In this document: positions 28,053 to 32,086 of the stretch, one piece after another
Numbering within the stretch: position 1 is the first letter of the stretch
Layout: every line of letters starts with the position of its first letter
Origin: an uncultured Pirellulaceae bacterium
GTDB taxonomy: Bacteria; Planctomycetota; Planctomycetia; Pirellulales; Pirellulaceae
Direction of reading: 5' to 3'
Assembly (NCBI GenBank): GCA_938036435.1
Contig: CALHPU010000118.1
Span: 1-64,000, forward strand
Length of the DNA: 64,000 nt
Position numbers and translations under genes: made by a program
The notes under the pieces: model-generated
Databases searched by the model: none
What the model saw: the letters and a program-made list of their open reading frames with translations, nothing else
Told to the model about the DNA's origin: nothing

Positions 28053-28673
28053 TTAGGGCCCGCTGCACTCGCGGAAGTGTTCGTTTTGGGTGGGAATCAG
28101 ACAGTCGATTATCTCGCGCAACACCTCGGCCGGCGACCCGTTAGCATCCACCTCGGCGATCATCTCAGTTGAAAAACAGGCCAATAACGGGGCCGATCTC
28201 TCTCTATAGACCTCAAATCGTCGTCGAACAACGTCTTCGTTACCATCGTCGGCTCGATTCTCACGGATGGCACGCCTTCGCATCCGATGGATCATATCCT
28301 CCTCGTCACTGCATTTCATGTGGACCACTTTAAGGATGTCCAGATGATCTTTCACCAGTTCGGTCTGTTCTACGTTCCTTGGAATACCGTCGAGCACCAG
28401 CAGGTCTTCGCGCGGCTTGAACCGAGACAGCGCCACGTAGGCATGCAACGCTTTCTTCCAAATGCGCACCGTTAGCTCATCAGGCACCAACCGGCCCTGT
28501 GAGCTGTACTGATAGACTTGTTTCCCGTCCTCGCTACCAATATCGATCGAGCGAAATACCTCACCGACGGAGAGGTGAAAAAAACCGGGAACCGTCCCAA
28601 GTATTGAACCTTGGGTGCCTTTGCCCACACCGGGAGGGCCAAACAACAGGATTGAGCGAAACTTTTCTTCCAT
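28053..28673 (-). CDS. Adenylate-kinase-like nucleoside monophosphate kinase
   Basis: 206 residues. Walker A GPPGVGKGTQ at 12-21, the NMP-binding segment (FHLSVGEVFRSIDIGSEDGK), the VLDGIPRNVEQTE motif (Ile where most have Phe) and a short LID lacking the four-Cys zinc knuckle. RRRAIRENRADDGNEDVVRR provides the catalytic arginines. It probably balances adenine nucleotides. Divergence from standard Adk (the altered NMP-binding segment and the GIPR motif) means another NMP may be preferred. It begins 22 bp after the seleno-peroxiredoxin gene ends, so the two are probably co-transcribed. Confidence 0.82.
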   Translation of the reverse strand: MEEKFRSILLFGPPGVGKGTQGSILGTVPGFFHLSVGEVFRSIDIGSEDGKQVYQYSSQGRLVPDELTVRIWKKALHAYVALSRFKPREDLLVLDGIPRNVEQTELVKDHLDILKVVHMKCSDEEDMIHRMRRRAIRENRADDGNEDVVRRRFEVYRERSAPLLACFSTEMIAEVDANGSPAEVLREIIDCLIPTQNEHFRECSGP

Positions 28674-28695
28674 GAGCCTTACCTTTTAGCGGGAA

Positions 28696-29370
28696 CTATT
28701 TCTTTGCTGAGCCAGCTGCCTTCGCGGCTGAACCAGCTTTAGTTGCAGAACCACCCTTGGCAGCGGCAACTTCAATCGCCTTCTTGAGGATCTCATCAAC
28801 CGAATGACGTTTCTTGAAGTCCTCTTTGAAAAGTTTTCCCTTTACAACTCCGTCTTTGCCAATGACAAATGTGCCGGGGTAGGGCAGTCCGCGTTGGTAT
28901 TCCAAATCAATCGCCTTGATCGTTTTACTTCCTTCATCACTGACCAACGGATACGAGATCTTTTTCGCCTTCGCGAATGTCGCCAATTTCGAAACCGAAT
29001 CATAGGACAACCCTACTACCTGTAGTCCGTTTTTGGTGAACTCGGATTGCTTCTTCTGCAGTTGAACCAACTGCCGCTTGCAGAAAGGTCACCAATCAGC
29101 CGATCGATAGACCACAAGCACTACTGGCCCATCAGTCAGTGCTTTTTTCAGACCAAATAATTTCCCATCTTGATCCTTCAGCTCAAAATTGGGGAACACT
29201 GCACCAACTTGTATGCTGCGCGATTGAACCGTGACTTTGCTGTCAGCAGTTTTTGCCGGCGCGTCCTTCATCGTCACTTGGCCATGGCAATATCCTGCAA
29301 GCGAGACGGCAAGTGCTAATCCGAACAACGGCAGCCAAGCCAAAGATAGAAGTGATTTTCGACGAACCAT
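28696..29370 (-). CDS. Candidate selenoprotein: peroxiredoxin/AhpC-TSA-like thiol protein with in-frame UGA
   Basis: The frame from ATG 29370 to the stop at 28696 is one phase of 224 residues interrupted only by TGA at 29091-29089. The residues around it read VVLVVYRSADW-UGA-PFCKRQLVQLQ. In AhpC/TSA-like homologues this place is normally Cys in a WCPFC-type CxxC motif, so UGA at residue 94 would be selenocysteine in a UxxC motif. Sequence on both sides is well preserved: signal peptide (LLSLAWLPLFGLALAVSLAG), PNFELKDQDGKLFGLKKAL, then VVGLSYDSVSKLATFA, RGLPYPGTFVIGKDGVV. The C-terminal ~30 residues are Ala/Gly/Lys-rich. GAAGG precedes the ATG. A hairpin just downstream resembles a SECIS. Alternatives are a nonsense mutation or a sequencing error. 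Probably an exported peroxidase or thiol oxidoreductase. Confidence 0.78.
29058..29074 (-). promoter_or_regulatory. SECIS-like hairpin downstream of the UGA
   Basis: In the mRNA, GCAGUUG-GUU-CAACUGC forms a perfect 7-bp stem with a GUU loop. The stem begins 14 nt after the UGA and the first loop base is nt 22. Bacterial SECIS elements lie within the coding sequence shortly after the UGA and carry a G at the start of a small loop, so placement and loop fit. An outer UUCUGC/GCAGAA pairing is also possible. Confidence 0.6.
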
Positions 29371-29484
29371 AAGTAGCCTTCAAATTACGAGGGGGAGGAA
29401 ATACAACATCGTGACTCCAGTATAGTAGCACAAGCGGTCTATTGCTAATTCCTTCGCTCGACTTTGGCGACGATCAGCGGACTC

Positions 29485-29907
29485 TTACTTCTGGCGAATC
29501 AGCACCACCGATTGGTCGATCATTTTCATTTGGCCAACAACATCTTCGGCCCGAAACCCAAGCTTCGTCGTCAAGAACATTCCATAGGGATCTTGCTTGT
29601 CAAACAATCCCAGCGGAGGGTCCCAGCGGTACCTCACCGAGAAAACAGACTCGGGCGTCAGGCGTGTCAGCTCCGTAAGATGAGACTGCTCGACACGACA
29701 GATCATGGTCGTCGTTTCCTTTCCGGGGATCGAACACTGGCACGCCAAGTCCCCACGCAACACGCCGGCGTTGTCCACGCGCAGCTGATTGGACAGCACT
29801 TCAAACTGTGCCTCCGCAAATCCAGCTTGGGACAAATAACCGAGAGCAAACGCGACCAACCCGATCACGACCAACAATGTCGCCAAATTAAATCGAAAAA
29901 ACTTCAT
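29485..29907 (-). CDS. Small membrane-anchored protein of unknown function
   Basis: 140 residues. One N-terminal helix (LATLLVVIGLVAFALGYLS) followed by a soluble part with two cysteines in DLACQCSIPG and one in MICRVEQ. I do not recognise the family. Its ATG overlaps the TGA of the ZnuA-like gene by 4 bp, so it is the last cistron of the ABC-transporter operon (32766 to 29485) and probably acts with it at the membrane. The region resembles planctomycete proteins with short anchors, with no conserved motif to name. Confidence 0.7.
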   Translation of the reverse strand: MKFFRFNLATLLVVIGLVAFALGYLSQAGFAEAQFEVLSNQLRVDNAGVLRGDLACQCSIPGKETTTMICRVEQSHLTELTRLTPESVFSVRYRWDPPLGLFDKQDPYGMFLTTKLGFRAEDVVGQMKMIDQSVVLIRQK

Positions 29908-30908
29908 TGCGAACCATCTTTAATCTCAACTGAAGCTTTCACTCCTTCAACCAACAACTTGAAATTATCTTTCACGCGTCTTGAAATCCCCTTTTGCGAA
30001 TCAGGTGACTCAATCAAGTCAAGCTGAACCCACTTAAGCCCCGAGACAAGATCGCACTCGTCCGAAGTAGGATCCCGTGCCCACAGCAGAAGGGACTGTC
30101 CATCAGTTTTCTTTTGAGCGATCTTTTCTTGCAGATGTTCTTTGGCCAACTGTAACTCTTCAGGTTCAAACCACAACAAACAGTCGGCTTCTGCCCCCAA
30201 CGCCCTCGCAAAGTGCTTTAGTCTTGGATCGCTTAACAACAGGCTCGTTTTCTTAGCCTTGAGCAAATCCTTGCACGCATCGGCCGCCTTTGATGCTTCC
30301 TTCAACGAGCTCTCCAGCACTTCGAAGTTTGCACGAAATGAATCCGCATCTTCGGGATACATTTCACACAACTTATCGCAGACCTCTTTTCCTTGCAGCA
30401 AAGCCAAACGAGGATTCAACCAACAATGCGGCACCATCCAGAAATGCGAATGCTCGCCTTCGCCACCATGGGAGTGGACGATTTTATGTTCTCGGACCTG
30501 AATGAAATCAGTCAACTCAAAACTGTGCGTCGTGGTCTCGAAGATCTTCTTACGATCCAGAGTAACCATTGGCAACCAAGTCGCATACGCGGTCCCCGGA
30601 CCATTGGTCAGCAGCACATCTGAACTTTGGAGCCTACGTATCTCCTCCGCTGAAGGAATCTTATCCGCTTTGGCTGGCATCCAAACTTCGTATTCTTCAC
30701 CGGTGATTGAACCGGCCATCGCCACCAGTGGATAACTGGTGGCCGCAATTTTTCTGCTCTGCGTCTTGTCCTGAAGTTGTTGAAAAACGCTCACGCTTTC
30801 TGGGCCATCAGTAGGGCGTTCACATCCCCAGCCAAGACAAAAGATCAACGGCAAAGCCAATATTATCAAACTACGACTACTCACTAACTTCCTCCGCGCG
30901 TGATCCAA
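29904..30908 (-). CDS. ZnuA-like metal-binding lipoprotein
   Basis: 334 residues. Lipoprotein signal with lipobox LGWGC near residue 29. The body resembles cluster A-I metal-binding proteins: KIAATSYPLVAMAGSITGEE, a clear domain of VLLTNGPGTAYATWLPM type, a His-rich loop (HKIVHSHGGEGEHSHFW), PHCWLNPRLALLQGKEV and a long linker helix. Such proteins capture Zn or Mn for an ABC importer. Here the operon supplies a MacB/LolD-type ATPase and FtsX-type permease instead of ZnuB/C, which is an odd match. The start overlaps the permease end by 25 bp. Confidence 0.8.
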   Translation of the reverse strand: MDHARRKLVSSRSLIILALPLIFCLGWGCERPTDGPESVSVFQQLQDKTQSRKIAATSYPLVAMAGSITGEEYEVWMPAKADKIPSAEEIRRLQSSDVLLTNGPGTAYATWLPMVTLDRKKIFETTTHSFELTDFIQVREHKIVHSHGGEGEHSHFWMVPHCWLNPRLALLQGKEVCDKLCEMYPEDADSFRANFEVLESSLKEASKAADACKDLLKAKKTSLLLSDPRLKHFARALGAEADCLLWFEPEELQLAKEHLQEKIAQKKTDGQSLLLWARDPTSDECDLVSGLKWVQLDLIESPDSQKGISRRVKDNFKLLVEGVKASVEIKDGSQ

Positions 30909-32086
30909 CTGTCAAAATAACTGCCGGCCAGTGAAGAACCAAACCAAGAAACGGCTAGAACCAAAACCGTGGCAACGACGCCCACGATCAGCATCTCCAT
31001 GACTTGTAATGCTATGATCGTTCCGCCGCGACAGCCTAGCTTAAACATCGTTTCTCGTTCCCCGTGGCGGAGCTTCAACGACAACAGCAACACCAGCGCA
31101 GTCAGCAACAGTGTGGACACCGCGATCAAGATCGTATTGATCATAAAGAACTGTCGCACGCGCAACAGCACCGACATCATTTCTTTGATCGATTCGACCG
31201 GCCGAACGAACTGCACCCCACGGTCGTTATTTTGGTATCGCGCCTCCAGTAGCGTTTGGCTCTTGATGTCTTTGGGAACGGCAATAATGGCAGAAACTGG
31301 GAACGAACTGGTGTCGCCGTGAAAATGAAACGACTCAATATTGCTTTCAGTGATCTCCGTGTAGGGGACCACTTTGGACGGCAAGGCCTTGATCTGCCCA
31401 TCTTGCCGAACCACATTCTCATCCTGTTCGGGCGATTGCAAGTCTTGGTGACCATGGCCAAGTCCTTGGATAATCCACGCCGTTTTGAGATCAACAAACA
31501 CGCCTTTATCATCCGGTGAACCATTTTTCGCCAGCACGCCGGCCACTGTCATTTTCAGTGGATAGTCTCCTGCGAGGTCTAGTAACTTCGGACGATCGGA
31601 AAGCAGTTGATCACCGGGGACTAGCCCAAGTTCGCCGGCACAATCTGCGCCAAGCAGACACTCACCAAGAATTGCCAGTGGCTCTCCTTGCGCGATCTTC
31701 AGATTGCGAAAACGAAAGTAGTCTCCTGTCGTTGCTACAATGGGAAACTGCTTGGCCTCGTAAAGGCAGTGAATCGGTATCGCAATCGCTAAACCATCGC
31801 GCAATACTTCTTCCTGTTCCGACATGGAAATGGTCTTAAGCCGATCTTCCCCAGAACCGCGATTGAAATAAAGCGCCCGCAGAGTCAGATCCAACGCACT
31901 TCCCTCGGGCCCAATCACGACAGGAGTCATTTCAGATCTTGTGTAGATCGATTTTTCAAACGATCGGATCAGTCCTGAAATGGTTACCGGCAGTATTGCC
32001 GTCAGAAACAAACAAGCAATCATCACGGCCGTTTTCCAACGGTGATAGAGAATGTAATTGAACGTCAGATAAAGCAGCCCTTTCAT
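30884..32086 (-). CDS. FtsX/MacB-type ABC transporter permease
   Basis: 400 residues. One N-terminal helix (VMIACLFLTAILPVTISGLI), a ~220-residue extracytoplasmic domain and three C-terminal helices (INTILIAVSTLLLTALVLLL; VMEMLIVGVVATVLVLAVSW). This is the 4-TM layout of FtsX/LolC/MacB permeases, which move lipoproteins, peptides or exert mechanical work rather than importing ions. The start overlaps the ATPase stop by 4 bp (ATGA), so both subunits are translated together. Confidence 0.85.
   Translation of the reverse strand: MKGLLYLTFNYILYHRWKTAVMIACLFLTAILPVTISGLIRSFEKSIYTRSEMTPVVIGPEGSALDLTLRALYFNRGSGEDRLKTISMSEQEEVLRDGLAIAIPIHCLYEAKQFPIVATTGDYFRFRNLKIAQGEPLAILGECLLGADCAGELGLVPGDQLLSDRPKLLDLAGDYPLKMTVAGVLAKNGSPDDKGVFVDLKTAWIIQGLGHGHQDLQSPEQDENVVRQDGQIKALPSKVVPYTEITESNIESFHFHGDTSSFPVSAIIAVPKDIKSQTLLEARYQNNDRGVQFVRPVESIKEMMSVLLRVRQFFMINTILIAVSTLLLTALVLLLSLKLRHGERETMFKLGCRGGTIIALQVMEMLIVGVVATVLVLAVSWFGSSLAGSYFDSWITRGGS

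Follow-up and report, generated by a model that had tools for sequence, protein, structure and literature searches.

A redoxin gene read through an in-frame UGA in a Pirellulaceae bacterium very probably encodes a selenoprotein of an already described peroxiredoxin-like type

Peroxiredoxin-like (Prx-like) thiol:disulfide oxidoreductases with a PF00578 domain and a UxxC motif are listed among predicted selenoproteins (PMC13188914, Table 1), the 'Prx-like 1' group of the Global Ocean Sampling set comprises 225 sequences (PMC2398784), and the Sargasso 'Prx-like' selenoprotein has UXXC in place of TXXU (PMC1088965). As far as their published descriptions go, these proteins share with the locus reported here an AhpC-TSA domain, the UxxC motif, a downstream SECIS-type hairpin and homologues with cysteine. 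Planctomycetes with the selenocysteine (Sec) trait and with selenoprotein candidates are already in print (PMC4807772), and it is possible that a planctomycete member has been listed among those candidates before. The main texts of PMC13188914 and PMC2398784 nowhere contain the string 'Planctomyc', and searches of the open-licence PMC literature turned up no account of a planctomycete redoxin selenoprotein subfamily. Here, we analysed a gene in a 64-kb window (the whole stretch of DNA under study, 64,000 nucleotides) from an uncultured Pirellulaceae bacterium. By its PF00578 domain and UxxC motif, the predicted protein matches the published description of the Prx-like thiol:disulfide oxidoreductase selenoproteins. 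The gene is thus an ordinary kind of find, which adds a member to a described type of selenoprotein. It gives the Planctomycetes a well-supported selenoprotein that simple gene calling would report as two fragments.

Translation of the minus strand gave a 224-residue frame (28699-29370) that is crossed by a single in-frame TGA at residue 94 (29091-29089), as an earlier note on this DNA had claimed, and that is ended by a TAG at 28698-28696 (Table 1). The peptide flanking the TGA reads RSADW-U-PFCKRQLVQLQ. The UGA lies, again as claimed, at the first Cys of a CxxC motif: the residues are U-P-F-C, and a Cys codon occupies the site in 79 of 114 loci. The expectation that conventional gene callers would split the gene agrees with the mechanical ORF listing, which gives one piece at 29089-29370 (93 aa) and another, TTG-started, at 28696-29070 (124 aa).

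Table 1 Predicted features of the redoxin locus in the window.
Feature	Position	Strand	Remark
Putative Sec-containing Prx-like (AhpC/TSA) redox protein gene	28696..29370	-	224 codons through one UGA
UGA codon, predicted Sec94, first position of UxxC (U-P-F-C)	29089..29091	-	
TGC codon of Cys97, predicted partner of Sec94	29080..29082	-	Cys codon in all TGA loci and all but one Cys locus
Candidate bacterial SECIS-type hairpin	29058..29074	-	7-bp stem, starts 14 nt after UGA

We consider it almost certain, on the sequence evidence, that this UGA encodes selenocysteine and that the gene is a selenoprotein gene. The earlier note's proposal of Sec at this codon is supported by UGA/Cys exchange among homologues, a covarying hairpin, tRNA-Sec and SelD in the same genome, and SelB and SelA in the genus. 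In the proposed mechanism, SelB would bring tRNA-Sec with anticodon UCA to the UGA, under the guidance of the hairpin at 29074-29058, and Sec would be inserted there; the product would be a protein of peroxiredoxin fold whose Trp-Sec-Pro-Phe-Cys active site lies where a helix begins. We infer actual selenium incorporation from these features. Alternatively, the UGA could be a real stop in a pseudogene or a split gene created by nonsense mutation or sequencing error, a reading in line with the TTG start present downstream and with the fact that the organism's own assembly yielded no SelA or SelB.

The window protein has an AhpC/TSA domain (PF00578, E 3.5e-31), and its relatives were collected from three sources. 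Named genome records yielded 79 of them. L001, which comes from a Pirellulaceae assembly, is the closest at 72% identity and has TGA at the same codon; of the remaining 78, 76 carry TGC or TGT at that place and two a Thr codon. In the family sample, 14 of 149 genomes had a match with an E-value of 1e-15 or lower, 13 of them with TGA at this codon; in the class sample, with E 1e-18 as the limit, 22 of 397 genomes had a match and 21 of these had the TGA. Over all 114 loci, window included, the exchange that the earlier note had named as a check was found at the exact codon, with TGA in 33, Cys (TGC/TGT) in 79 and Thr in two (L069 and L073); these loci share descent, and the counts are not independent. 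The 33 TGA loci comprise the 13 of the family, the 21 of the class and L001, with genomes G000 and G082 being in both samples. The 79 Cys loci came mostly from one scan of genome records, whose patterns included the peptide ADWCPFCK, so that this set is biased towards Cys forms of distant phyla; it also contains near-duplicates and a number of distant loci, and three of its members are from Planctomycetia (L115, L117 and L177). At the position of Cys97, a Cys codon is present in 33/33 TGA loci and 78/79 Cys loci (exception L117). Against a pseudogene or split gene, 32 further loci, 30-72% identical, share the TGA at this codon. One TGA gene, L113 in genome G016, has an extra in-frame TAG inside the hairpin region and is either a broken copy or an assembly error. 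A plasmid search yielded relatives below 60% identity only.

The coding sequence on both sides of the UGA was compared with that of L001. Upstream, dN was 0.18 and dS 0.96 (41 codons); downstream, dN was 0.08 and dS 1.07 or 2.6 depending on the method (104 codons, near saturation), one downstream sub-range being saturated and giving no NG86 value. The downstream dN below dS points to purifying selection past the UGA, and dN below dS on both sides argues against a pseudogene or split gene. Gene order is also kept in L001, with an ABC permease, a ZnuA-like protein, a small protein, the redoxin and the start of an adenylate-kinase-like gene (window 28053-32086), the names of the neighbours being assigned by reading the sequence. 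In L105, from a genome of the same genus, ZnuA-like and small genes adjoin the redoxin at 27-32% identity.

Bacterial SECIS-type hairpins lie just after the UGA and have a small loop holding a G (PMC1088965). The perfect 7-bp stem reported earlier at 14 nt past the UGA was found as described, with arms GCAGTTG (29074-29068) and CAACTGC (29064-29058) around the loop GTT (GUU in the RNA, 29067-29065). The loop, said to begin with G, does so in all 33 TGA loci, where it is GUU, GUC or GUG in 32 and GCC in one. The 24-nt hairpin folds at -8.8 kcal/mol, with 2/200 dinucleotide shuffles as good, and a longer 56-nt stretch is not unusually stable (z 0.14, 98/200 shuffles as good), so that folding stability alone is weak evidence. 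In the sequence comparison, it is conservation rather than stability that lifts the putative hairpin above chance. Counted with L113 and without the Thr loci L069 and L073, a mean of 6.73 of the seven pairs is formed in the 33 TGA loci (seven pairs in 25, six in 7, five in 1) versus 3.56 in the 79 Cys loci, a single one of which, L177, has all seven. Among 420 placements tried, that of the window hairpin has the highest mean pairs, and RNAalifold recovers the stem unaided with six pairs.

Two inner pairs vary together at synonymous positions of Gln/Leu codons. Over the 33 TGA loci, pair 21-31 is GC in 20, AU in 11 and GU in 2, and pair 22-30 is UA in 19, CG in 13 and otherwise (unpaired) in one. 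Double-sided changes amounted to 25 cells compared to 9.9 in shuffles (0/500 as high) and to at most 2 when the stem partner was slid. The number of pairs with a double change (3) and that of further pair types (5) were not above shuffles (224/500 and 500/500 as high, respectively). The protein motif QLVQL by itself favours stem pairing: synonymous re-coding of 32 of the 33 TGA loci, L113 being left out with its second stop TAG in the stem, gave a mean of 4.58 pairs, and P lay between 0.026 and 0.195 for the loci printed individually. In Rfam, RF00031 (SECIS_1) had no match in the own genome and none in 14 control genomes either, so that this result says nothing, and the hairpin region matched no family, its one match having an E of 3.7, far under the cut-off. 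With the shared TGA, the covarying hairpin and a dN lower than dS both before and after the UGA, we rejected a pseudogene or sequencing error; a genuine stop at this codon is, in our estimate, extremely improbable.

The selenocysteine machinery was sought in the organism's own assembly (4.57 Mb, 176 contigs, 89.75% complete). A tRNA-Sec with anticodon TCA (UCA) scored 70.3 bits, and SelD scored 269.4 bits in a 743-residue ORF on contig C60 (L101:4930-7161, minus strand). By eye, this ORF has an extra N-terminal part that is NADH-dehydrogenase-like and a Cys where some SelD have Sec; it is similar to the CxxC-containing Ndh-SelD fusions reported in PMC2398784. The profile search did not find SelA and SelB in this 89.75% complete assembly. 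A weak SelA candidate on C75 (28.9 bits) was rejected, its frame being read as a cysteine desulfurase, presumably of SufS type. The matches to the SelB model (best 146.7 bits, cut-off 242.25 bits) were also rejected as translation GTPase-like by score and frame length; we take them to be EF-Tu and other translation GTPases. Of the four genes whose absence from the genome the earlier note had named as a refutation, those for tRNA-Sec (selC) and SelD were thus detected in this assembly and selA and selB were not.

In the same genus, five other sampled genomes have SelB in 5/5 and SelA in 4/5 cases, and tRNA-Sec is present in all six sampled genomes, own included. SelB exceeds the cut-off in 31/33 TGA genomes (11/13 of the family and 20/20 further ones) and in 76/149 genomes of the family sample; the two TGA genomes without it, G000 (89.75% complete) and G063 (82% complete), both have tRNA-Sec. 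All 13 TGA genomes of the family are among the 82/149 with SelB or tRNA-Sec (hypergeometric 2.7e-4, a value that ignores kinship). That selA and selB sit in the missing part of the own assembly is the simplest account rather than a proved one, and we infer that SelA and SelB are present in the species.

These data also bear on a second alternative, in which a near-cognate or dedicated tRNA reads the UGA as Cys or Trp. As this alternative would have it, the own assembly yielded no SelA, the maker of Sec on the tRNA, but the genome does have a tRNA-Sec with a TCA anticodon and SelD, and four of the five genus mates have SelA. Moreover, a conserved hairpin follows the UGA, which is required for SelB-dependent decoding (PMC1794560). 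In the mechanical ORF set of the 64-kb window, TGA terminates 9 of 39 non-overlapping ORFs of at least 150 aa and is therefore apparently not reassigned throughout; genome-wide reassignment was rejected on this ground, and ordinary use of TGA as a stop likewise speaks against readthrough as Cys or Trp. We regard such readthrough as very improbable and retain the reading of the codon as Sec.

The AlphaFold model, computed from the window protein, L001 and 38 relatives, had a mean pLDDT of 83.9, low in residues 1-50 and in the C-terminal tail, and placed residue 94 just ahead of helix 95-106. (Protein set A3 holds 28 of 32 listed references, and set A4 holds 38 of 52 listed ones plus the window protein and L001.) The nearest solved folds in Foldseek were peroxiredoxins of the Bcp/PrxQ type, BcpB (5epf) and Bcp4 (3hjp), which have the same fold with TM-scores of 0.86 and 0.88 by target length and 0.60 and 0.63 by query length, respectively. 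Oxidoreductases of the ResA type (4nmu, 3c71), whose active site is CxxC, were also matched; they have the thioredoxin fold in common with the window protein, to which they are 24-26% identical over the structural match. The window protein stays below the cut-off of every NCBIfam model, scoring 51.1 of 170 bits with the ResA model; for the other 27 members the search gave E-values only, and the cut-off result applies to the window protein alone.

Peroxiredoxins act with a catalytic set of Pro, Thr and Cys (PxxxTxxC) and a conserved active-site Arg. In the window protein, residues 90-97 are S-A-D-W-U-P-F-C, without the PxxxTxxC motif, and in comparison to Bcp/PrxQ other residues occupy the positions of the catalytic Pro, Thr and Arg, with UxxC instead of TxxC. 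Ser90 aligns with the Pro of 2cx3 and 2ywn, Sec94 with the Thr of 5epf and 2ywn and the Ser of 2cx3, Cys97 with the motif Cys of all three structures (TxxC in 5epf and 2ywn, SxxC in 2cx3), and Pro165 with the Arg of 2cx3 and 2ywn, the alignment to 5epf ending before the Arg. The motif of Sec-containing peroxiredoxins is given as PxxxTxxU (PMC13188914). The earlier note's 'peroxiredoxin-like' holds for fold and Pfam family, and its 'Sec-peroxiredoxin' is unsupported as an enzyme, PxxxTxxC and the Arg being missing.

The missing catalytic set favours a thiol(selenol):disulfide oxidoreductase, which we consider the likely role. Sec94 would be the nucleophile that attacks the substrate and Cys97 the resolving residue via a Sec-Cys bridge, a predicted mode nearer to thioredoxin and ResA than to a true peroxiredoxin. 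A true peroxidase, in which Cys97 is peroxidatic and Sec94 its partner, would equally be a selenoprotein; it agrees with the best fold matches being peroxiredoxins and with Cys97 lying on the Cys of TxxC or SxxC in 5epf, 2cx3 and 2ywn. We judge it unlikely, given the Sec at the place of Thr or Ser in these structures, the replacement of the Pro and Arg of 2cx3 and 2ywn by Ser90 and Pro165, and UxxC/CxxC positions that are kept in the TGA and Cys homologues save one, as in thioredoxin-like oxidoreductases. For the favoured oxidoreductase, the predicted site of action is probably outside the cytoplasm: by eye, the N-termini of the redoxins resemble signal or lipoprotein peptides, and export of the window protein is plausible.

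A maximum-likelihood tree was computed from 98 of the 114 loci. L069, the block L071-L079, L013, L020, L064, L070, L113 and L196 were left out; those of the block are mostly distant, except that it includes L075, a near relative from Colwellia, and L013, L020, L064, L070, L113 and L196 are short or broken. L113 was excluded from the protein alignment as well. Every one of the 31 UGA rows belongs to a single 38-row clade (support 100/98), which also includes seven Cys rows, namely four of Opitutaceae, the fused proteins L115 and L117, and L177. The forks inside the clade are weaker (91/71, 84/78), the root is a midpoint root, and, taken alone, the starred branches require no more than one Sec/Cys change; several independent changes would be the shortest reading rather than a demonstrated one. 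Our own reading is that Sec may have come first, followed by three changes to Cys. For the wider proposal of a Planctomycetia-wide redoxin selenoprotein subfamily with ancestral Sec, which to judge from the window protein would lack its own NCBIfam model, and in which the Cys forms of Opitutaceae, of a redoxin fused to another domain and of one genome of family f20 (the last with its SECIS hairpin still intact) arose separately from Sec, we see about even chances. Sec, Cys and Cys-with-hairpin forms within one clade make a natural series for the study of Sec/Cys exchange.

L177 (genome G226, family f20) has TGC at the Sec position, an intact 7/7 hairpin and SelB in its genome, and its change from Sec to Cys is therefore perhaps recent, with a remnant SECIS. 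Remnant SECIS-like structures have been described before in Cys homologues (PMC1794560). The nesting of the Cys redoxins L006, L008, L016 and L047 of Opitutaceae (Verrucomicrobiota) inside the planctomycete UGA clade suggests transfer or, alternatively, common descent, and a change from Sec to Cys. The Cys paralogues L117 (own genome, C122:31246-31551) and L115 (genome G144) are N-terminal in frames of 498 and 539 aa, respectively, the rest of which is glycoside-hydrolase-like by eye, and in L117 the second Cys of the CxxC is Ser.

A covariance model of the hairpin region was run on the own genome, and 150 of 3213 first-look candidates were scored. Among these 150, the window gene was the one strong match (59.7 bits, E 5.3e-11), followed by three weak matches, the best at C53:334-377 (21.7 bits, E 0.09). 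The other two, L199 and L200, were rejected for having no coherent protein across the TGA. The best weak match led to L198:3-626 (minus strand, C53), where an in-frame TGA lies in an AhpC/TSA protein (PF00578, E 1.6e-19) in the context FFRGMW-U-PYCN; the gene is cut by the contig end and has AAAGGAG ahead of its ATG. A 6-bp stem follows 14 nt after the TGA (10/200 shuffles fold as well), and three plasmid-borne homologues aligned to it have Cys at the Sec position. The hairpin model has thus pointed to a further probable selenoprotein encoded by this genome.
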